Shown piece by piece: positions 4,385 to 14,920 of a stretch of 32,401 nucleotides of DNA. The stretch spans positions 1-32,401 of the forward strand of contig CAITJF010000174.1 in NCBI GenBank assembly GCA_903892645.1, given 5' to 3'. Under the pieces are notes generated by a model. That model was not told where the DNA came from. It worked only from the letters and a program-made list of their open reading frames with translations, and made no database searches. The first letter of the stretch is position 1. The number at the start of each line of letters is the position of its first letter. The translations under genes were made by a program, and so were the position numbers. Source of the DNA: an uncultured Nitrosomonadales bacterium. Lineage in GTDB: Bacteria; Pseudomonadota; Gammaproteobacteria; Burkholderiales; Gallionellaceae.

Positions 4385-4520
4385 ATGCGCCGGTCCACAC
4401 AGGCAGTGTTGGTGCTGGCGCGGCATTATCTTGAGCAAGGCGCGGTGGTTGGTACAATCACCCGCCGCGCCGAGTTGCTGCAACCTCTTTTCAAACAATT
4501 TCCCATTCAGGGATCTCAAG
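4385..4520 (+). pseudogene. Decayed short-chain dehydrogenase N-terminal fragment
   Basis: Residues LARHYLEQGAVVGTITRR followed by AELLQPLFKQFP, read in the frame of ATG 4385, match the first Rossmann helix and strand of short-chain dehydrogenases. The preceding dinucleotide loop is visible only in another frame, where the DNA reads HTGSVGAGAAL (TGxxxGxG). The motif is therefore split by a frameshift near 4410-4425. After about 4520 the reading frame continues to 4717 without any dehydrogenase-like sequence, so the rest of the gene is missing. This is a remnant call made from motif memory; an alignment to SDR proteins would settle it. Confidence 0.5.
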
Positions 4521-4719
4521 TGATACCCTCTGCGCCCGATCACCCCAAACTCTCGCAGACGCGGGAAGGCCATGTATTATCACAAAAAATTTTATGTTCA
4601 AACGAACGGATAAACGCTAATTTCTCCCCCAGTTCACCGGAGTGTGTTGGTAATGTGCGTAGTAAATTGCTCCTTAAACGTAGACTCCGCACTCATGCCA
4701 GCTCCAATTATATATAGCT
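4521..4719. other. Intergenic stretch after the dehydrogenase remnant
   Basis: About 200 nt with no gene I can support. It becomes A/T-rich near 4580-4610 and near 4707-4716 (ATTATATATA), just before the decarboxylase start. It could hold that gene's promoter, but no clean -35/-10 pair is visible. Confidence 0.4.
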
Positions 4720-6171
4720 ATGCTGGAAACCTCTGAAAACACACTTGACCCATCCGATTGGCAAGCCTTTCGGGTACAAGGCCACCGGATGTTGGACGAT
4801 ATGCTGGACTATCTCGAGCACCTGCGCGAGCAACCGGTGTGGCAACCCATTCCGCAAGAGGCGCGCGATTTATTCCGGCAACCACTTGCCAGCGAACCGC
4901 TTGATCTCGCTGCAGCGCATGACACGTTCATGCAGAACGTGCTTCCCTATGCCGTGGGTAATGCGCATCCGGGCTTTATGGGCTGGGTTCATGGTGGCGG
5001 AACGCCCGTCGGAATGCTGGCGGAAATGCTGGCCGCCGGACTGAATGCCAATCTTGGCGGACGCGACCAGATGCCGATTGAAGTGGAACGGCAGGTGGTG
5101 CAATGGGTTCGTGAATTGTTCGGTTTTCCTGAGTCCGCCAGCGGCCTGTTTGTAACCGGCACCTCTATGGCAAACCTGATCAGCGTGCTGATTGCACGCA
5201 CCGCCGTCTTTGGCAGCAGCGTGCGCCAAAGCGGAATTGCTGCCGGACAACGCCTGACCGCTTATACATCCGCCAGCGCCCATGTCAGTATTGCACAGGC
5301 GATGGATATTGCGGGTATCGGCACGGATTTCTTGCGCATGATTCCGGTGAATGACCAGTACCAGATGGATGTTGATGCACTCGAACGAGCCATCGCAGCG
5401 GACAGGAAGGCTGGCATGACCCCGTTTTTTATTGCCGGAACGGCGGGCACCGTGGATGTCGGTGCAATCGACCCGCTCGCCGCCCTTGCGGAGGTCGCGC
5501 ATCGCGAAGGAATCTGGTTTCACATTGACGGCGCTTACGGAGCGCTCGCCATGCTGGCTCCAGACATTGCGCCGCGTTTGCGGGGAATCGAACGGGCCGA
5601 CTCCATTGCTTTTGATTTCCATAAATGGGGGCAGGTGCCCTACGATGCGGGTTTTGTCCTGGTTCGGGATGGAGCGCTTCATCACAGCACATTTGCATCG
5701 CCGGCAGCTTATTTGAAACGGGAAGCCCGTGGCATGGCGGCGGGTTCACCGTGGCCGTGTGATTTCGGCCCGGATCTTTCGCGTGGTTTCCGGGCGCTCA
5801 AAACCTGGTTCACGATAAAAGTATATGGCTCGGAAAAGCTGGGGCGGGTCATTTCGAATACCTGTGCACTGGCCCAATACCTGAAGCAGCGTATCGAGGC
5901 AACGCCGCTGCTGGAACTGCTCGCGCCGGTTTCACTGAATATTGTTTGCTTCCGTTATCGCTGCGAGGATGCCGACCGGGTAAATGCGGATATTGTTGTC
6001 GCGCTGCAGGAGTCGGGAATTGCCGCACCCTCAACGACTACCATTGATGGGCATCTTGCGATTCGCGCTGCGATTGTCAATCATCGCACCAACGCGAGTG
6101 ACATCGACGCTCTGATCAGTGCGACAATTAAATTCGGTGAAGCGCACACTGCACACGGGCAAACATCATGA
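4720..6171 (+). CDS. PLP-dependent group II amino acid decarboxylase
   Basis: A 483-residue cytosolic enzyme of the aromatic-L-amino-acid/glutamate decarboxylase fold (pyridoxal_deC). Visible family marks are NAHPGFMGWVHGG (81-93), a phosphate-binding GTSM (147-150), a ring-stacking His188 in SAHVS, TAGTVDVGAID (241-251), FHIDGAYGA with Asp270 for the pyridine nitrogen, and the Schiff-base lysine Lys302 in FDFHKWGQVPYDAG. The usual asparagine of NPHKW is replaced (DFHKW). Full length suggests it can be active. The substrate cannot be read from sequence. The start has little ribosome-site support. It overlaps the next gene by 4 nt (ATGA), so the two are coupled. It sits in a stretch of broken genes and may be acquired. 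Confidence 0.88.
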   Translation: MLETSENTLDPSDWQAFRVQGHRMLDDMLDYLEHLREQPVWQPIPQEARDLFRQPLASEPLDLAAAHDTFMQNVLPYAVGNAHPGFMGWVHGGGTPVGMLAEMLAAGLNANLGGRDQMPIEVERQVVQWVRELFGFPESASGLFVTGTSMANLISVLIARTAVFGSSVRQSGIAAGQRLTAYTSASAHVSIAQAMDIAGIGTDFLRMIPVNDQYQMDVDALERAIAADRKAGMTPFFIAGTAGTVDVGAIDPLAALAEVAHREGIWFHIDGAYGALAMLAPDIAPRLRGIERADSIAFDFHKWGQVPYDAGFVLVRDGALHHSTFASPAAYLKREARGMAAGSPWPCDFGPDLSRGFRALKTWFTIKVYGSEKLGRVISNTCALAQYLKQRIEATPLLELLAPVSLNIVCFRYRCEDADRVNADIVVALQESGIAAPSTTTIDGHLAIRAAIVNHRTNASDIDALISATIKFGEAHTAHGQTS

Positions 6172-6635
6172 ATCCCGGCACACTGAACCTCGATATCCCG
6201 GCGCAATATCCCGCCAATGACACGGGCCAAGAGCCGCTCATTGGGCTTGCAAAGCTGATGCGGATGGCCTTTTCCGGAGTTGATCTCGCACCCTTGGGTA
6301 CGCAATTGATCGAACGCGCCGGAGCTGATCCGCGTGCCGCGAGCGCCAATGCATTGATGGATTTATCCACGGTCTTGCAACTCAGGGGAGACCGGGAGCT
6401 GGCCTTGGTCATGCAGGCCCAGGCGCTGGAGATACAGCAAATTTACTCTCCGCCGACTGCCGTCGGCCAAGCAGGAATCCGGCTTCTCGCCATCATGGGG
6501 CCGGGTGATTTGATGGCAAATACACCTCTGGAATTTTTGCTGGAAGATTCAGATGTTGCGCTCGATATACTCTACGTTGCGCCAAGTTTGCCCTTGCCAC
6601 CATCGCTGGCCAACGCGATGAAGCGCGGCCTGTAA
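6168..6635 (+). CDS. TPR-like hypothetical protein, probably 3'-truncated
   Basis: A 155-residue protein whose start overlaps the decarboxylase stop (ATGA), implying translational coupling. The middle, NALMDLSTVLQLRGD followed by RELALVMQAQALEIQQ, resembles one tetratricopeptide-type helix pair. IRLLAIMGPGDLMANTPLEF and VALDILYVAP look like the beginning of a second domain. From memory, relatives continue well past this point, into a region with an ATP-grasp-like domain; here the protein ends abruptly with SLANAMKRGL. I infer loss of the 3' part. Function unknown; the coupling suggests a shared pathway with the decarboxylase. Confidence 0.6.
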   Translation: MNPGTLNLDIPAQYPANDTGQEPLIGLAKLMRMAFSGVDLAPLGTQLIERAGADPRAASANALMDLSTVLQLRGDRELALVMQAQALEIQQIYSPPTAVGQAGIRLLAIMGPGDLMANTPLEFLLEDSDVALDILYVAPSLPLPPSLANAMKRGL

Positions 6636-6669
6636 CTTGAAGCATTGAGGTTAACAGGAACTACGGGCA

Positions 6670-7929
6670 ATGAATGCGAAGCCAAAATCAAATATCGGAA
6701 AGGCTTCCAGAAAAACCAGGCCGCCATTCGAATTCGACATCAACGGCAATATAACCGTTTCTGCGTTTGCAACAAAAGCAGAAGATGTTAACGAGTTTGC
6801 GAACCGCTACGTAAGGGAGTGGCTGTTGTGGCACCGCTCTGGCCGTCTCGACGCACGCGTGTGCGATATAGCTGCGCTTATTGTTTCAATTATTGATTGT
6901 CAGTTTCTCCCCAATTATTTTTTTGATCACAAAATTGAGTGGATTGAAAAAACCTTCCTGCTGAAAAAGCTAAGGGAGACTATTCCGGTACGGTTTTCAG
7001 AATATTCGGCAGCAACGCTTGCGGCATTGCGCGCTCTCAGGCCGACCATTTGCCAGGAAGCTGAAATGCCAGGCATTGATGCTTGCGACGAACTTCTTCA
7101 ACTCGCGCTGCCTGTTGAAAAAATGCTGGTGCTTGGCGGCGATCATCGCTTGGTCGTGGATCAGAGCACCCAATTGAACAGTTACGGATGCCGCCCTTTT
7201 CCTCGCCCCGAGGCAATTACATTTTCATCGTCTACCGCAACATCCATTTCAAAATATGCATTCGATCTGGTTGAAAAACGGCGACAGCAATTTATTTCAG
7301 AAGCCATTGAAAGCGGCGTTCAAACTGCCGTGGCCGATTTGGCGCAAGAAGTCCGCACCGGAATTTGTCATCAGTTGGGTATTGGAGCAAGCCTTGCCGA
7401 AGTGGTCATAACAGCCTCTGGCACCGATAGCTTTCTCATAGCGCATGGACTTACCCGGCTCCTTTCGGGCAGCCCGACAGTAACGCTCATAGTGGGGGTG
7501 GACGAATCTGGGTCTGGTGTGAAGCTTGCCTTGCAGGAACGGCATTTTGCCGACGATACAGCTCTGTCATATGCCGTTCAGAAAGGTCAGCCTCTCTCCA
7601 CTGGAAGCAGCCAGGAGCGCCAAATTGATATTCCAATCCGGGATACAGCCGGGGGTGAAGTTCCAATAACAGTCCTGGATAGTCAAGTGCGGGACTTGGT
7701 CGTCACGAATGTTGCAGCCGGTAGCTACGTGGTCGTTCACGCAATGAACCATTCAAAATTGGGCTACTCCGGCCCATCCAGAGCTCTGCTCATGGAGCTT
7801 AAGCGTATGCTGGGGCCTAAAGTCTGTATCGTTGTTGACGCGTGCCAAATGAGGCTGGACCGGGAAGAGATCATTGAATACCTGGAACATCAAATGATGG
7901 TTCTCGAAGTTAACAGGAAGAATGGTTAA
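6670..7929 (+). CDS. PLP fold-type I transferase-like protein lacking the lysine region
   Basis: A 419-residue protein. The N-terminal ~200 residues are unrecognised; the second half resembles a fold-type I PLP enzyme. It has a phosphate-binding ITASGTDS (247-254), DESGSGVKLAL (278-288), an HSKLGYSGPS segment (361-370) and a cofactor-contacting VVDACQMRL (388-396, Asp390). In such enzymes the Schiff-base lysine follows about 20-25 residues later. Here the chain ends 29 residues after Asp390 with MVLEVNRKNG and no recognisable lysine motif, so catalysis is unlikely and the gene is probably truncated. It starts 34 nt after the previous gene, with AACAGGAA upstream. Confidence 0.6.
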   Translation: MNAKPKSNIGKASRKTRPPFEFDINGNITVSAFATKAEDVNEFANRYVREWLLWHRSGRLDARVCDIAALIVSIIDCQFLPNYFFDHKIEWIEKTFLLKKLRETIPVRFSEYSAATLAALRALRPTICQEAEMPGIDACDELLQLALPVEKMLVLGGDHRLVVDQSTQLNSYGCRPFPRPEAITFSSSTATSISKYAFDLVEKRRQQFISEAIESGVQTAVADLAQEVRTGICHQLGIGASLAEVVITASGTDSFLIAHGLTRLLSGSPTVTLIVGVDESGSGVKLALQERHFADDTALSYAVQKGQPLSTGSSQERQIDIPIRDTAGGEVPITVLDSQVRDLVVTNVAAGSYVVVHAMNHSKLGYSGPSRALLMELKRMLGPKVCIVVDACQMRLDREEIIEYLEHQMMVLEVNRKNG

Positions 7930-8026
7930 CGCTCTTATAGAAGATGAATTCTGGCAAATTGGCGTGACGCTTGGAAAGATCGAGCTTTTGCTTAGTGCGT
8001 ATTCGAACAATGAAATTGAATTGTGA
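7922..8026 (+). CDS. Possible 34-residue peptide gene overlapping the PLP-like gene
   Basis: ATG at 7922 opens a 34-codon frame that overlaps the preceding stop by 8 nt and follows ACAGGAAG closely. The translation (MVNALIEDEFWQIGVTLGKI and on) is protein-like but short. It could be a coupled small protein or the remnant of a gene truncated at its 5' end. A second overlapping frame, 8010-8141 (43 codons), is equally unproven. Confidence 0.25.
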   Translation: MVNALIEDEFWQIGVTLGKIELLLSAYSNNEIEL

Positions 8027-8181: not shown

Positions 8182-8970
8182 TCAGGGGTCGTTGCTTAAG
8201 CCTTTCACCAGGCTTTCACTTTGCAGGCGAGTAATATAGTTTTGCAACAGGGAGTTCGTCTGGTTATCCAGACGTCCAAATTGGCAGCCCGCGCGTGTAT
8301 TAACCAATTCGTTGTGGGTGGTGTTTATGTTATTTTTTACCTCGATGTTAACTCTCAGGTTGCCGATATCAGGTAGCGAAATCAGGCAATCTTGAAAAGT
8401 CCTTCCAGGCCGCAATTCGGTTTCATGTTCGTCGCACAGCAGAGAGACGCCTCCGCCGCTGATATCCAGGACAGTCACTTCACGCAAAATTTCAGGTTCC
8501 TCTGGCTTGTCTGGGTTGTATAGTTTAATTGGGATGATGCACTTGACAGGCGCGCTAGCCGGAATGCTTAAGCGGAAATAGTCTCTTCGTTGTATGCGTA
8601 ACAGGTAATCGGGCAACTCCAGATAAAACGTCTCGTCACCTTCAAGCAACACACTCTCAATTTCATGTGCTTCGAACTGCACCTTAACGTGCTGATGCAG
8701 GCTTACAAAAGTAATTTTCTCGCTAAGCAGAATGCGCTTGTTTTCCGGGGGGAATGGGCCGACATCCAGCCACATGCCGTTCTCGTTAGCGCCATACAGG
8801 GTGGTCAAAATGAAATTATGATCGTCGTAGTACAGCGCGATACGTGTGCCATTTTCCGCAATGTCTTGCAGGATGAACAGCATTTCCTTTTTTGATTTGA
8901 TGCGGAATTCGATATCCTGGCCGCGGGAAAAACGTTCTATTTGCAATGTAACTTCTTTTTTTCTGGACAT
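8182..8970 (-). CDS. ycgR: YcgR-type flagellar brake protein with PilZ domain
   Basis: A c-di-GMP receptor that in enterobacteria binds the flagellar motor and slows swimming (family knowledge). The N-terminal YcgR domain covers about 1-120 and the PilZ domain about 130-245. The c-di-GMP contacts are present: RDYFR (RxxxR) in IQRRDYFRLSIP, and DISGGGV (DxSGGG) about 45 residues later. I chose ATG 8970 (MSRKKEVTL, 262 residues). A TTG at 8991 would add seven residues, and neither has a good ribosome site. It is the last gene of the leftward flagellar run, 39 nt after the FlhB-like gene. Confidence 0.9.
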   Translation of the reverse strand: MSRKKEVTLQIERFSRGQDIEFRIKSKKEMLFILQDIAENGTRIALYYDDHNFILTTLYGANENGMWLDVGPFPPENKRILLSEKITFVSLHQHVKVQFEAHEIESVLLEGDETFYLELPDYLLRIQRRDYFRLSIPASAPVKCIIPIKLYNPDKPEEPEILREVTVLDISGGGVSLLCDEHETELRPGRTFQDCLISLPDIGNLRVNIEVKNNINTTHNELVNTRAGCQFGRLDNQTNSLLQNYITRLQSESLVKGLSNDP

Positions 8971-9009
8971 GCAATAGTCTACATATTTCAAATTGAGGTT
9001 TGCATTTTA

Positions 9010-9312
9010 CTATTTTTTCTCCTTTGGCGAGTCCAAATGTGCGGGGGTTTCCAGGTGCTCCAAACGGTATAACCATGCGAGCAGTTCCGCTACGGCCATA
9101 TAGAGTTGCGGCGGAATGTGTTGATCCAGTTCGACTTGCATCAGTAAGCCCACCAGCTCTTTCGATTCATGCACATATACGCCGTGTTGTTTGGCGCGTT
9201 CGATGATGGCTTGTGCGATCAGGCCGCGACCCTGCGCCACCACCTTGGGTGCGGGGTCGTGCCCACGGTAAGCCAGCGCAACGGCCATTTGGCGTTTATT
9301 GGGCACCGTCAT
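9010..9312 (-). CDS. FlhB C-terminal-domain paralogue (FhlB-like)
   Basis: A 100-residue soluble protein matching the cytoplasmic C-terminal domain of FlhB/YscU, the export-gate switch protein: MAVALAYRGHDPAPKVVAQG, then IIERAKQHGVYVHESKELVG, LLMQVELDQHIPPQLYMAV and AELLAWLYRLE. The four FlhB membrane helices are absent. The self-cleavage NPTH motif is also absent; the chain begins TVPNKRQMAVAL where FlhB has NPTHYAVAL. Such stand-alone proteins can partly replace the cleaved FlhB tail in some bacteria. Its ATG overlaps the fliK-like stop by 4 nt, so the two are coupled, and FliK-FlhB contact controls substrate switching. Confidence 0.88.
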   Translation of the reverse strand: MTVPNKRQMAVALAYRGHDPAPKVVAQGRGLIAQAIIERAKQHGVYVHESKELVGLLMQVELDQHIPPQLYMAVAELLAWLYRLEHLETPAHLDSPKEKK

Positions 9313-10379
9313 ATTGTTGTGACCTGCGTGCTAAGTACCGGGATGCCGACGTCCGACAGGGCGGCAACCAGTTGTGTACTGGCATTGCCCAACATCGCAC
9401 GTGTTTCGGGGGTCCCTGCGTTTAACGTGAGGCTCAGGCCTGCATTGTTAAAACGTAGTGTGGCCGCAACCTCGCCCAGATTGGGTAGGTCCAGGCGCAG
9501 CTGGGTGACCCATTGCCGTTGCTCTTCTGCACCGGGAGTTGGTGAAGGCTGTTCGTGGACTTCCCATTGCATAGTCTGTTCCGGCCATACATTGCCCTGC
9601 CACACCATTTGTCTGGTTTCCAGAGCATTGAGTTGCTGTTGCACCAAAGGCTGCAAATGCTCGGGGATAACCAGTGCCTTGTCTTCCGGCATGAGTGTCG
9701 TATTCGGCTGATTTGATACATTTGTATTGGCGGTATTGCTTGTCGTAACTGATTGATTGGCAGTATCGCCCACCATCACAGCTTTCCCTGTGGCGTTCTC
9801 CGCCATCGCGGTTTTGGCCTGCTCGGGTGTCATGTTCTGCGGTTCATGCAGCAGTTGCGCGGTGCTGCGCGTGCCTTCAAGCCATTGCGCCTGATGCGAT
9901 TCATAGAACAGGCCGCTATTGCTCAGTGTCTCACGCAGCAGTCCGGATAGTTGCTTGCTTTCAGGAGGCTGGGGTTTATCCCAAAGCGGCGCACTTTGCG
10001 CCGCACGCACAAAAGCCTTTTCCGGCGCCTGTTGTGACAAGGAGGACAGCAGCCGGGCTGCGGAGCCCAGTTGCTCCGGCGTGGATAGCGGGTTGGCCGA
10101 ATTAACCATGCTGAAGGTCAGGCGCGGCTGGTTGGCGATGACTTGCAGCATTATCGTGTCACCGCTACGGATGTTTGCCGGAAGCTGCATCTGGACAAGC
10201 TGCTGTGCGATGCGCACATTGAATATACCGGGGGAGACTTGGGCTTGCACACTGCCCGCGAATTTTACCCCTAGTTCAAACTGCCCGGTTTTGGGCGTCG
10301 TTTCGGCAGCCGCAGGAAGCGGCAGCTTTTGCTCAAGTGCGTATGCCTTGAGTGCATTTAAAAGGTTGGCAGGCAGCAT
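9309..10379 (-). CDS. fliK: Flagellar hook-length control protein, FliK-like
   Basis: A 356-residue exported ruler/switch protein. The N-terminal third (FAGSVQAQVSPGIFNVRIAQ, then SGDTIMLQVI) resembles the N-terminal part of non-enteric FliK proteins. The middle is Gln/Thr/Asn-rich and low in complexity. The C-terminal Flg_hook domain (about 265-356) shows WVTQLRLDLPNLGEVAATLR, LSLTLNAGTPETRAML and a closing LVAALSDVGIPVLSTQV. The name fliK is by domain only; a second, canonical fliK may exist elsewhere. It is coupled to the FlhB-like gene downstream and lies 18 nt after fliT. Confidence 0.85.
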   Translation of the reverse strand: MLPANLLNALKAYALEQKLPLPAAAETTPKTGQFELGVKFAGSVQAQVSPGIFNVRIAQQLVQMQLPANIRSGDTIMLQVIANQPRLTFSMVNSANPLSTPEQLGSAARLLSSLSQQAPEKAFVRAAQSAPLWDKPQPPESKQLSGLLRETLSNSGLFYESHQAQWLEGTRSTAQLLHEPQNMTPEQAKTAMAENATGKAVMVGDTANQSVTTSNTANTNVSNQPNTTLMPEDKALVIPEHLQPLVQQQLNALETRQMVWQGNVWPEQTMQWEVHEQPSPTPGAEEQRQWVTQLRLDLPNLGEVAATLRFNNAGLSLTLNAGTPETRAMLGNASTQLVAALSDVGIPVLSTQVTTI

Positions 10380-10397: not shown

Positions 10398-10718
10398 TTA
10401 TTCGCCGGAATAAGCTTGTTGCAAACGGCGCTCCTGCCCGTTACTTTGTATGAGGTGCTGTAATTGCGCCATCCACGGCTCGGTGTGGTTGCGGATCTCT
10501 TTGTCGTCAGCGAGCATTTTGCGGATCAATGCCACTTTGCGCAGCCGTGTATTTTCGTCAATCTGGGTTGCTGCATCCTGAGCTTTCATGGTTTCCACGC
10601 GTTGGCTGCATTGGCCTTCCAGTTCCACCAGATGATCCCACTCACCTTGCGTGGCGGCCACACGCATCTGACCCATTATGGAGGAGAGAAGCTCGTAATT
10701 TTCGATAACCGGGTTCAT
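10398..10718 (-). CDS. fliT: Flagellar export chaperone FliT
   Basis: A 106-residue all-helical protein. In the family FliT binds the FliD cap protein and, in enterics, FlhDC. Seen here: MNPVIENYELLSSIMGQMRV, then a WDHLVELEGQC helix, then LRKVALIRKMLADDKEIRNH (the conserved I..iL..d..Ir motif), then a C-terminal helix. Position directly after fliS (3 nt gap) supports the call, since the family is weakly conserved. Confidence 0.82.
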   Translation of the reverse strand: MNPVIENYELLSSIMGQMRVAATQGEWDHLVELEGQCSQRVETMKAQDAATQIDENTRLRKVALIRKMLADDKEIRNHTEPWMAQLQHLIQSNGQERRLQQAYSGE

Positions 10719-10721
10719 CGC

Positions 10722-11189
10722 TCACATCCTTCCGTAAGTCAGCGCAGCTGGTTTTTCGGGTGCTGTTTGTGGCTGGGCAGTGGTGCCTCGCTGCGCAGAT
10801 GCGGCTGCCGGGCGTATTTCTTCCCACGCTCCCTTGAGTTCGGTAAGCAGGCGGCTTACTTCGTCCAGCGCGGCGATATCATTTTTCAGATTGGCGATCA
10901 GCAGGCGCTGGTTCATGTAGTCATACAGAGCGGACAGGTTTTGTGCCAGGTCGCCGCCTGCATTCTTGTCAAGGCTGGATTTTAGTCCTTCGTCGATAAT
11001 CATGATGGCATGGGAAATGGATTTTCCCTTGGCGGCGATTTCCTTGCGCAAAATTTGGTTCTTGGCCGAGCTTATTGCCAGCAAAGCGCCCTGATACAGC
11101 AACAAAATAAGTTTGTGCGGGTCTGCCGCCGTCACGTTGGTTTCCAGCCCGACTTTCGCATAAGCCTTGATTACGGTGGTGGCGTTCAT
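10722..11189 (-). CDS. fliS: Flagellin export chaperone FliS
   Basis: Binds the C-terminus of flagellin and prevents premature polymerisation in the cytosol. It has 155 residues with typical four-helix markers: YAKVGLETNVTAADPHKLIL near the N-terminus, LLYQGALLAISSAKN, KGKSISHAIMIIDEGLKSSL and LYDYMNQRLLIANLKND. The C-terminal ~30 residues are an Ala/Gln/Pro-rich tail, making it slightly longer than usual. A GGAGAG site precedes the ATG. A structured repeat element (11203-11267) lies between it and fliD. Confidence 0.95.
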   Translation of the reverse strand: MNATTVIKAYAKVGLETNVTAADPHKLILLLYQGALLAISSAKNQILRKEIAAKGKSISHAIMIIDEGLKSSLDKNAGGDLAQNLSALYDYMNQRLLIANLKNDIAALDEVSRLLTELKGAWEEIRPAAASAQRGTTAQPQTAPEKPAALTYGRM

Positions 11190-11270: not shown

Positions 11271-13307
11271 TTATGGCAGTTTGGCCAATTGTTGCGACAG
11301 ATAATTCATGGTTGAGCCCATGCTGCTAAGCATGGTGTCCAGTGTCGAGTATTGTTTCGTTAAACGTGTCTGGGTATCGGCCAAGCGCACATTCAGCGCA
11401 TCGCGCTGTTTTCCGATGTCCGTGATGCTGCTGTTTATCCCTTTGGTCGCAGTGTCCAGCAGGCCATTATTCGCCAGTAGCGAAGTGGATAATTGATTCA
11501 ATGCGTAGGCGTAACCCTGTGAATAGTTCACCTTGCCGCGCGCACCTGTTGCCCCACCGTTAATCTGGATTTTGAGTCCCGTCGCGTCCCCTGCGGTGGC
11601 GGTAAGAAACTGGCCCGATCCTGTTGCCGCCACCCCGTCTATGGTGCCGGCCACGTCCACACCAAGTGTGCCTGCCCCGCCCATGCCGAAATTTGCCACG
11701 GGAGTGCCCGTGCCGTCGGTCATGCTGATCGTGGAAGCCGAGCCGTAACGGCTGGAGGTGAGGGTCATTAAGCCGCTGACGGCATTAATGGTGGCGGCCA
11801 CGGAAGATCCGAGCACTGAGAATGCGGATGTGCCATTGATAGCCGACTGAATCATCGCGGCCAGTTGGGAGGAGGTATAGGTAGTTCCGGCTGCCAGCGC
11901 AACCGAAGCGCTAATTCCGTCCAAGGTCGCATTTATTGTGGTGCCGGGGGCGATGGTGATCGGAGCGGCAGCATTCAAGTCAACATTGCCGATGTTGCTG
12001 CCCTGAGTTGCCAGCGTGCCCACGTTGATGGCGTAGCTGCCCTGCTTGGTGCTGGTCGTGACTGAGTTGTAAGCAACCAGGCTGTCGGATGCTTTGCCCA
12101 CCGTCGCGAACAGCGCGGCGATGTCACTGAAGTTGTTGCTGATGGCGGTGTTCAGCTTGGTGGAGTCCAGCGCCAGTGTGCCGTCTTTCTGGAACGACAC
12201 GCCGATTTGCGACAGGTTGGTGAACGAACCGCCAGTGCTGCTGATGGGTGTATTCAATACCGCGCGTACTTGCGTTTGCAGTGTGCGCACCGTGGAATCG
12301 CCCTGCAGAACCGCGCCTTTTTTAGTGGTGGGGTCATAGGCGGAAGCGTTCTTCAGGGTTGTGTTCAGGTCGTTGTAGGCTTTCACAAAGCCGGCTACCG
12401 AGGCGCTGGCCTTGGAGGTGTCGCGCGCAACGGTCACGGTTGCCGGTGCGGTGGTCGGGGCTTTCAGCAGGCTCAACGTGACACCCTGGATGGCGTCGGT
12501 AATGGTGTTGCTGGCCTTGCTCACGAATATGCCGTTCACCTTGAACTCGGCATTTTGTGCCGTTACGGTCTCGGCAAGGTTTTGTGTGCCGCTTGCCGGG
12601 GCGGTTCCCGGATCATGCGCGAGCAGTGTGCCCAGTGTTGCATCGCCTGCAACGGAGATCTTGATGCTGTTGCTGTTGCCTATGCTGTCGGAACTCAGCG
12701 CCAGGCGATAGGGTGTGGCAGTTCCGTCATTGACGAGGGTCGCGGTTACGCCGATTTTCGCGCTGTTGATGGCGTCGCGGATGCCTTGCAGCGAGTTATT
12801 CGTGGCATCAATGGTGACGGTTTTCGTGCCATTGCCATTGGAGGTGAAGCTTGCACCGGTGTATTTTCCGGTCACCGGGTCGAAGCTGCCGCCCCCGATT
12901 GCGATGCTGCCGAAATCGAAAGTCAGCGTGGTTGATGCGCCCGTGCCGATGGCCGCCGTGTCGCTGGCTTTTCCGATGGTCGCCAGCTTTTGCGCTTGCG
13001 CCAGCTTGGTTACGTCAAGGGAATAAGTACCCGTTACCGCAGTGGGTGCAGCCGAAACGGTCGCTACGCTGCTGTCTGATGTGGTGGCATTTAGCGCCTG
13101 GAATTTGCTTATATCGCTTAGTCCGGATACCGTGGTCTGGAAACTGCCCAGCGCCCCCTTGATGCTGCCGTAAGCGGAAAGCTTGGCCTGATAGCTGGCT
13201 TCCTTTGTGGTTAGCTTGGCAAGCGGCCGCTGTTCAAGCGTCATCAGTTGACTGACGATACCGGCGACGTCAATGTTCGAACCCGTGCTCACCGAAGTAG
13301 TTGCCAT
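11271..13307 (-). CDS. fliD: Flagellar filament cap protein FliD (HAP2)
   Basis: The exported cap pentamer that folds flagellin onto the filament tip. It has 678 residues, longer than the enteric protein because of a large variable surface region. The N-terminal FliD_N domain starts GSNIDVAGIVSQLMTLEQRP with LTTKEASYQAKLSAYGSIKG. Central repeats are Ala/Thr/Ser-rich. The C-terminal FliD_C region holds GVSFQKDGTLALDSTKLNTA and ends with a coiled coil, RLADTQTRLTKQYSTLDTML, then SSMGSTMNYLSQQLAKL. The ATG at 13307 has a CAGGGGAT site. It is 13 nt after flaG. Confidence 0.97.
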   Translation of the reverse strand: MATTSVSTGSNIDVAGIVSQLMTLEQRPLAKLTTKEASYQAKLSAYGSIKGALGSFQTTVSGLSDISKFQALNATTSDSSVATVSAAPTAVTGTYSLDVTKLAQAQKLATIGKASDTAAIGTGASTTLTFDFGSIAIGGGSFDPVTGKYTGASFTSNGNGTKTVTIDATNNSLQGIRDAINSAKIGVTATLVNDGTATPYRLALSSDSIGNSNSIKISVAGDATLGTLLAHDPGTAPASGTQNLAETVTAQNAEFKVNGIFVSKASNTITDAIQGVTLSLLKAPTTAPATVTVARDTSKASASVAGFVKAYNDLNTTLKNASAYDPTTKKGAVLQGDSTVRTLQTQVRAVLNTPISSTGGSFTNLSQIGVSFQKDGTLALDSTKLNTAISNNFSDIAALFATVGKASDSLVAYNSVTTSTKQGSYAINVGTLATQGSNIGNVDLNAAAPITIAPGTTINATLDGISASVALAAGTTYTSSQLAAMIQSAINGTSAFSVLGSSVAATINAVSGLMTLTSSRYGSASTISMTDGTGTPVANFGMGGAGTLGVDVAGTIDGVAATGSGQFLTATAGDATGLKIQINGGATGARGKVNYSQGYAYALNQLSTSLLANNGLLDTATKGINSSITDIGKQRDALNVRLADTQTRLTKQYSTLDTMLSSMGSTMNYLSQQLAKLP

Positions 13308-13768: not shown

Positions 13769-14920
13769 TTACCTCAACAGGGCCATTACGCCGTTCGGGA
13801 CTGCATTGGCCTGCGCCAGCATCGCCGTACCGGCTTGTTGCAGGATCTGCGAACGGGTGAGCTGTGCAGTTTCTGCGGCAAAGTCGGTGTCCTGGATCCG
13901 GCTGCGCGAGGCAGTCAAGTTCTCCGACGTTGTTTGCAGGTTGGCAACCGCAGAGCTGAAACGGTTCTGGTATGCGCCCAAAGCAGCCCGTGAGATATTC
14001 ACCGCGGCCAACGCATTGTCGGCTTGGGCGATCGCAAACTGGGCGTTGGTATAGGACGAAACATTCAGGCCCGCAATACCCGTTTGCGTAACGAGCGCAC
14101 CCACTGCACCGGCATTAGCAAAGCCCCCGACGGTTGCATCATTCGTGGTACCGGCTACTGCAAAAGTTGCGGCCGACGAGTAAGTAATATTCCCGGTAGT
14201 CGCATCATAGCTTGCACCGACACCCGTTGTTGACGATACTCGGTTGGTAGCATCTACCAGTTGCGCGGCACGTTGCTGGGCGTTGGAGGCAGCCCCTATA
14301 GCACCGATATCCGTACCGTTGATGGTTATACCGCCTGCAGCGATAGTTGTGGCAAAACCTGTCAGCGTGGACGCCAGGTAAGTGGCGGTTGTTTGGTTGG
14401 TAACGCCGCCGAGTGAGGCAACTTGTGCGTTTGCGAGACCCGTAACCGTGATCGATTCACCAGCGTTCGCACCAACCTGGAATAACGCAGAACCCATCGA
14501 GCCATCAAGCAGTTTTTGGCCATTGAATGCGGTTTGGGTGGCAACACGCTGAATTTCCGTCAGCAGTTGACCAACCTCATTGTTCAGCGCGTTGCGGTCT
14601 GCCTGCGTGTTGGTCGCGTTGGATGCCTGGACGGACAGATCACGGATACGCTGCAAATTGTTGCCGACTTCGGAGAGTGCGCCTTCAGCCGTCTGCGCCA
14701 GGGAGATACCGTCGTTGGCGTTGCGCGCAGCCTGGGTCAGGCCGTGAATTTGCGAAGTCATCCGATCGGCAATGGACATGCCCGCTGCGTCGTCTTTCGC
14801 GCTGTTGATGCGCAGGCCGGAAGACAGGCGTTGCAGCGAAGTTGCCAAGGCACCTTGCGACGTGTTCAGGTTGCGTTGGGCATTGAGCGACGCAATATTG
14901 GTATTGATGAATTGAGCCAT
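13769..14920 (-). CDS. fliC: Flagellin
   Basis: The filament subunit exported by the flagellar type III system, 383 residues. The N-terminal D0/D1 signature [40 protein letters not shown] and [20 protein letters not shown] is textbook. The C-terminal D0/D1 part has [40 protein letters not shown] and a final [18 protein letters not shown]. The central ~150 residues are a Thr/Ala/Gly-rich variable surface domain, shorter than in enteric flagellins. A strong AAGGAG site lies 8 nt upstream. Transcription is predicted from the sigma-28 promoter at 15020-15046. Confidence 0.98.

Follow-up and report, generated by a model that had tools for sequence, protein, structure and literature searches.

Among the described systems that combine an ATP-grasp protein with the modification of flagellin, the sfmABCDE genes of Shewanella oneidensis include SfmE, an ATP-grasp protein of 412 amino acids (aa) whose deletion shifts the mass of flagellin, according to the available part of PMC3765264, and for the ATP-grasp protein CDR20291_0245 of Clostridioides difficile a role in flagellin modification was proposed from its position in a gene cluster, according to the available part of PMC5207246. 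The locus considered here lies in a stretch of 32,401 nucleotides, referred to as the window (contig CAITJF010000174.1 of GenBank assembly GCA_903892645.1), from an uncultured Nitrosomonadales bacterium of the family Gallionellaceae. In this stretch the gene of a decarboxylase dependent on pyridoxal 5'-phosphate (PLP) is followed by the remnants of two further genes, whose intact homologues are predicted to be an ATP-grasp ligase and a second PLP enzyme, and this three-gene cassette adjoins flagellar genes. It is considered moderately probable that the cassette encodes an amine-making, amide-forming pathway that serves the flagellum and that has been inactivated in the window genome.

The S. 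oneidensis operon resembles the cassette in that an ATP-grasp protein takes part in flagellin modification, as the cassette ligase would; it differs in the other members, which comprise a PseI-like protein, an oxoacyl-ACP-reductase-like protein, and a methyltransferase, and neither "decarboxylase" nor "pyridoxal" occurs in the main text of PMC3765264 as available.

The cassette and its enzymes

The initial annotation had taken the three genes as the remains of a small biosynthetic cassette, and intact versions in other genomes bear this out. In a scan of named genomes with the gene-3 alignment, the order decarboxylase, ligase, and PLP enzyme on one strand was found in 69 of the best 80 loci (62 of 69 where the upstream sequence suffices); the order was counted by tblastn, as automatic gene calling had overlooked part of the genes where the GC content is high, and the other 11 loci were without decarboxylase, had the ligase downstream, or were cut by a contig end. 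The titles of these loci include Gallionella, Methylobacter, Sulfuricella, Sulfuriferula, Oxalobacteraceae, Geobacter, Riflebacteria, and Fibrobacteria. In three of them the decarboxylase and the ligase form a single open frame (915 aa in L048, 863 aa in L108, and 877 aa in L109), and the pairwise distances among the three proteins correlate with r 0.82-0.89 over 37 loci, a level attained in none of 1000 permutations. Within the Gallionellaceae, relatives of gene 2 occur in 63 of 158 genomes, the window genome included, and relatives of gene 3 in 38 of 158, all of which also possess gene 2. Partner homologues of the same short length and without linkage to the decarboxylase, which would have refuted this reading, were not what was found: the homologues are longer and the linkage is conserved.

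Gene 1 (4720-6171), located on the plus strand like genes 2 and 3 in the list of open reading frames (ORFs), encodes a full-length protein of 483 aa belonging to the group II PLP-dependent decarboxylases; it matches PF00282 over residues 50-414 (E 9.5e-70, 235.6 bits against a cut-off of 27) and carries the lysine motif FDFHKW at residues 298-303. As already recognised from the first reading of the DNA, it is coupled to gene 2 through an ATGA overlap at 6168-6171, in which the TGA of the former meets the ATG of the latter. The residues H194, D276, and K308, numbered according to the first row of the decarboxylase alignment (A6, 41 of the 56 eligible proteins plus the window), are invariant in its 42 rows and are presumably the catalytic ones, including the PLP lysine and the pyridine-ring aspartate. 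PF00282 is shared with the tryptophan decarboxylase of Ruminococcus gnavus, which is the nearest solved structure by sequence, and with DOPA/tyrosine decarboxylases; the protein also matches 4obu with E 1.8e-67. In contrast, none of the listed NCBIfam decarboxylase models gives a score that reaches its cut-off, with 205.5 bits against 900 for the RhbB L-2,4-diaminobutyrate decarboxylase (NF052646) and 97.8 bits against 299.4 for the tyrosine decarboxylase MfnA (TIGR03812), and for this reason no substrate is read off its homology, nor did the alignment to solved structures point to one.

Gene 2 (6168-6635, plus strand) is represented in the window by a remnant of 155 aa that keeps the helical TPR-like N-domain, the start of the ligase domain, and the final codons, whereas the intact homologue of the same-genus locus L021 has 419 aa. 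A TPR-like protein with a possible ATP-grasp domain had been proposed for this gene, with full-length homologues indicated beforehand as the place to look for the latter, and the fold was recovered there: the AlphaFold2 model of an intact gene-2 protein (L058, predicted local distance difference test score (pLDDT) 93.5) consists of an N-terminal helical region followed by an ATP-grasp fold. Among the families listed by VIA-align or Foldseek, which also define the other fold likenesses given here, the model matches RimK (5zct, Z 19.1, root mean square deviation (rmsd) 3.7 over 270 residues), LysX (3vpd, Z 18.6), and ArgX (3vpb, Z 18.3); Foldseek gave E 2.5e-12 for LysX/ArgX and a profile search reached 3vpd with E 0.00073. 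Intact gene 2 is, as judged from this predicted model, of the ATP-grasp ligase fold. The carboxylate-amine ligases RimK, LysX, and ArgX are its best fold matches, with a sub-threshold match to the RimK family model TIGR00768 (30.8 bits, cut-off 143.4 not reached); the cassette ligase differs from them in the extra N-terminal helical TPR-like domain, in an identity of 14-20%, and in scores far below the curated cut-offs, and only 1 of the 64 members of its alignment (A5, 64 of 64 eligible proteins) matches the Pfam RimK model at E 0.01. For the window protein, the Pfam TPR model PF13424 gave 18.6 bits, below the cut-off of 30.1, and TPR_12 is matched by only 6 of the 64 homologues even at E 0.01; since these matches are sub-threshold, "TPR-like" describes the protein without placing it in the TPR family.

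Paralogues of the ligase are also found paired with a class-V aminotransferase, SerC-like by eye, in L031 (7372-9634), L036 (7422-9816), L037 (1448-3768), and L038 (6899-9808); these pairs, without decarboxylase or third gene and away from core flagellar genes, constitute a second, different cassette.

Gene 3 (6670-7929, plus strand) is the remnant, 419 aa long, of the N-terminal part of a PLP enzyme, in which the aspartate motif DACQMR is kept. The window protein has no accepted Pfam match; the second PLP-fold protein that had been suggested as third gene was recognised in an intact homologue (L043), whose model (pLDDT 91.5) shows the fold-type I, class-V PLP fold, with the NifS-like 4ixo at Z 23.3 (rmsd 3.4, 345 residues), AGXT at Z 22.9, and aminoethylphosphonate transaminase at Z 22.7. 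Intact gene 3 has, on the evidence of the predicted structure, a class-V-like PLP fold. With the class-V enzymes NifS, AGXT, and 2-aminoethylphosphonate transaminase it shares this fold (Z 21.7-23.3 over 341-367 residues) and the lysine and aspartate motifs, K281 and D254 being invariant in all 66 rows of the alignment (A4, 66 of 70 eligible proteins); in contrast, the identity is 8-15% and none of the 66 members matches any Pfam model at E 0.01, Aminotran_5 included, nor did either of the two members tried match NCBIfam. On the Sinorhizobium medicae plasmid pSMED03 (L042, 8953-10488), a gene-3 relative shares an overlap with the end of a non-ribosomal peptide synthetase gene of very large size; a phosphopantetheinyl transferase and a SagB family protein are encoded close by.

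The pairing of a decarboxylase with an ATP-grasp ligase is known from methanogens, where the tyrosine decarboxylase MfnA supplies the amine and the tyramine-glutamate ligase MfnD, an ATP-grasp enzyme, ligates it to glutamate in the methanofuran pathway. Production of a furan-type C1 cofactor along the same route would agree with this pairing, with the weak match to the MfnA model, and with the several methanotrophs among the hosts; nevertheless, this is very improbable, because the MfnA score of gene 1 is about a third of that required, the gene context differs, many hosts such as Gallionella, Geobacter, and Cupriavidus are not known methylotrophs, and the cassette is closely tied to flagellin, as described below.

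Flagellar neighbourhood and co-occurrence with flagellin

In the window the cassette is followed, on the minus strand, by the genes of a YcgR-like PilZN-PilZ flagellar regulator (8182-8991), an FlhB C-terminal-domain protein (9010-9312), a FliK-like hook-length control protein (9309-10379), FliT (10398-10718), FliS (10722-11189), FliD (11271-13307), and flagellin (13769-14920). This association was not foreseen by the initial annotation and recurs elsewhere at different flagellar junctions: in several Gallionella loci the cassette is located between flgN/flgM and flgA, in other loci it adjoins fliE/fliF, fliK, or fliS-fliD-fliC, and in a Riflebacteria metagenome-assembled genome (MAG) it adjoins flagellin-like genes. 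Flagellar labels rest on blastp (E 1e-6) against a reference set of proteins taken from the window and other loci, and the core flagellar set excludes FliA, MotB, FlhG, YcgR, FlhF, and FliI; the FlhF label in Methylobacter loci is probably due to the related Ffh. At least one core flagellar gene is present in 33 of the 65 loci of at least 10 kb, and in none of the 8 loci of gene-2 paralogues outside cassettes (L030 has YcgR; L033 extends over only 5.3 kb). Among the first 20 loci of the family, flagellar labels occur in 8 of the 12 with gene 3, and in the 8 family genomes compared, with both on one contig, the distance between cassette and flagellin is 7.9-36.8 kb. TPR-rich proteins whose C-terminal function was not recognised also adjoin cassette or flagellin genes, at 14703-16376 of L106, which has three related ones, and at 10836-13001 of L025.

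At the level of whole genomes, flagellin is present in all 38 Gallionellaceae genomes with gene 3, in comparison to 116 of 158 overall (hypergeometric p 1e-6), and in 49 of 50 further cassette genomes, in comparison to 125 of a background sample of 229 genomes of the class (Fisher p 1e-10 for 49 of 50). Neither p-value takes kinship into account, and classes other than that of the background are represented among the 50 genomes. For this sample 61 of the 80 loci were considered, the 19 from Gallionellaceae or on short contigs being left out, and 50 were used after near relatives and small contigs were dropped (L048, L049, L054, L057, L060, L062, L088, L094, L100, L101, and L105). One of the 50 (L064) is, by its coordinates, the family genome G005, so that 48 of 49 remain for genomes from outside the family, and the sole flagellin-negative genome is a Geobacter MAG (L087). 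The presence of flagellin extends to genomes in which no core flagellar gene was seen at the cassette locus. In the genus of the window, G007 and G009 have no match for flagellin, gene 2, or gene 3, and G008 and the window genome have all three.

The view that the cassette is indifferent to flagella, and that chance or a tolerant insertion site placed it among their genes, can appeal to a position that varies between lineages and to upstream regions devoid of flagellar promoters; it is rendered quite improbable by the 33 of 65 loci near core flagellar genes against 0 of 8 for the non-cassette paralogues and by the presence of flagellin even where the cassette locus itself shows no core flagellar gene.

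Several observations weigh against a pathway serving the flagellum. Core flagellar genes are absent from 32 of the 65 loci of at least 10 kb. A sigma-28-like site (at least 11 of 12 positions) precedes the decarboxylase in 3 of 71 cases, in comparison to FliC with 15 of 16 and other genes with 4 of 300, and sigma-54-like sites are not enriched upstream of the decarboxylase, although the positive controls are weak too; with both enrichments absent, membership of the cassette in the late flagellar regulon was rejected. By eye, no difference in length range, composition, or termini separates the flagellins of cassette-positive from those of cassette-negative family genomes (20 of each, with a few sequences incomplete at contig ends). 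PF01973, presumably the family of the Maf flagellin glycosyltransferases, occurs in 1 of 158 family genomes, in 6 of the 41 other cassette genomes counted out of the 50, and not at all in the window genome. Moreover, the loci considered were the best 80 of 400 relatives in a ranking by similarity to a Gallionella seed, and genomes that are akin do not count as independent observations. Finally, in Shewanella only the first four sfm genes, and not that of the ATP-grasp protein, are named as required for normal motility in a section heading of PMC3765264.

The rarity of PF01973 in cassette genomes indicates that a glycan transferred by Maf is not the general carrier, and glycan tailoring through Maf is rejected as a general mechanism. 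This is a further difference from the sfm system, for which Maf-like proteins were suggested to transfer the glycan (available part of PMC3765264); most of the cassette genomes tested lack such proteins. A Maf-like PF01973 protein does lie about 3.5 kb or less from the cassette in L047 and adjoins it in L054 and L063.

Several of the same observations can be accommodated if the product of the cassette is a biogenic amine converted to a free amide, possibly secreted and acting as a signal, siderophore-like compound, or defensive molecule, with the flagellar position reflecting shared regulation or a motility-linked ecology. Such a product would be consistent with the absence of a visible flagellin difference and of a late-flagellar promoter and with the loci lacking core flagellar genes; in addition, each of the three enzyme classes is at home in small-molecule biosynthesis, and the gene-3 relative of the Sinorhizobium plasmid pSMED03 is directly downstream of a non-ribosomal peptide synthetase gene. 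The flagellin found in all 38 family genomes and in 49 of 50 further genomes with the cassette, as well as the use of several different flagellar junctions, argue in the opposite direction, and a free amide is regarded as rather unlikely.

Two internal deletions in the window copy

Genes 2 and 3 had been described as truncated at their 3' ends. The early stops are confirmed by the greater length of the relatives: the open frame of gene 2 has 164 aa in the window against mostly about 400-450 aa in the 62 other family genomes with a relative (the shortest being 127 aa in G147, 309 aa in G031, and 324 aa in G030), and gene-3 relatives uncut by a contig end have 453-669 aa. A simple 3' cut did not hold, as the losses are internal and both 3' ends survive; the window cassette is a decayed copy with internal deletions.

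In gene 2, the DNA of the window aligns with that of L021 up to 6611 and restarts at 6605, so that the first junction (6605-6611, plus strand) consists of a 7-bp block overlap with 795 bp absent between the blocks. The loss corresponds to 265 codons in frame after residue 147, with the last codons remaining, and takes most of the ATP-grasp domain, including the glycine-rich loop and the FEVD motif; no ATP-grasp domain is consequently recognisable in the window protein. In gene 3, the alignment with L025 extends to 7902 and the 3' end of the homologue restarts at 7904 in another frame (second junction, 7902-7904, plus strand). The net loss of 653 bp is out of frame, which abolished the reading frame and made the stop at 7929 a new one, while the old 3' end is still readable on the plus strand at 7904-8026, out of frame with the 5' part, as SKLTGRMVNALIEDEFW...NNEIEL-stop, and ends at the stop position common to the homologues. 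This deletion removes the TGSK lysine motif, which is found nowhere in the 419 aa of the window protein, so that its PLP-binding lysine is missing.

The surviving parts show low ratios of nonsynonymous to synonymous substitution (NG86 dN/dS against L021 of about 0.13 for gene 1, 0.16 for gene 2, and 0.19 for gene 3), which means either that the decay happened recently or that the deletions are errors of the assembly. In the latter case the window cassette would be intact, and this purifying selection, the fragmented state of the assembly (2.68 Mb in 268 contigs), and the 7-bp block overlap at the first junction are all compatible with it; however, the missing part of gene 2 was looked for elsewhere in the window genome assembly and not found, and the genome has a single gene-3 place, which ends at the junction. 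An error at both sites is accordingly considered improbable. With genuine deletions, the loss of most of the ligase domain and of the PLP lysine implies that the full pathway cannot run in the window genome, even if the decarboxylase could still be functional.

Upstream of the decarboxylase, between it and dsbA, a short ORF (4385-4717) has a weak SDR-like N-terminus (NF005437, E 0.005) and is possibly a gene remnant; as a member of the cassette it was ruled out, being without a Pfam family and not seen at the same place in L021.

Proposed pathway and significance

The deletions, the gene order, the fusions, the predicted folds, the flagellar surroundings, and the joint occurrence with flagellin are observed here, and the chemistry, the sequence of the steps, and the flagellar target are inferred from them. 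The enzyme classes make it likely that the pathway is derived from an amino acid. The decarboxylase would most likely convert an amino acid to its amine, which would be passed to the ligase, a hand-over suggested by the enzyme classes and by the fusions of the two proteins; the ligase would in turn most likely use ATP to join the amine to a carboxylate with the formation of an amide. RimK and LysX have protein carboxylates as their substrates; in the cassette ligase, the additional helical domain could hold a protein substrate. The third enzyme may carry out a further PLP-dependent step on the precursor or the product, by which the group would be prepared or finished. The flagellum is the likely beneficiary because of the position of the cassette and its co-occurrence with flagellin, and the product would most likely either be used to modify a flagellar protein or be a small molecule that is required while flagella are made.

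In a more specific and only tentative form, the cassette may represent a flagellum-dedicated, Maf-independent modification distributed over several phyla, in which the amine produced by the decarboxylase would be finished by the PLP enzyme and attached in amide linkage by the RimK-like ligase, whose helical N-domain would recognise the flagellar protein; this modification would be in the course of being lost in the window genome.

The enzyme superfamilies are known. What appears to be undescribed within the literature covered is the way in which they are combined, the PLP family as yet unclassified, and the location among flagellar genes, and no paper among the matches listed treats the cassette; the amidoligase survey of Iyer et al. 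2009, cited in PMC3765264, is outside that scope. The cassette is compact and conserved, with a PLP family matching no Pfam model and two catalytic partners that are fused in some genomes, and its tie to the flagellum is strong in iron oxidisers, methanotrophs, and other bacteria. An unexplained gene set is thereby turned into a testable question, namely which amine-derived group or molecule the flagellum uses; since the chemistry of SfmE and of CDR20291_0245 is predicted but not measured in the available parts of PMC3765264 and PMC5207246, the answer obtained for the cassette could inform both.

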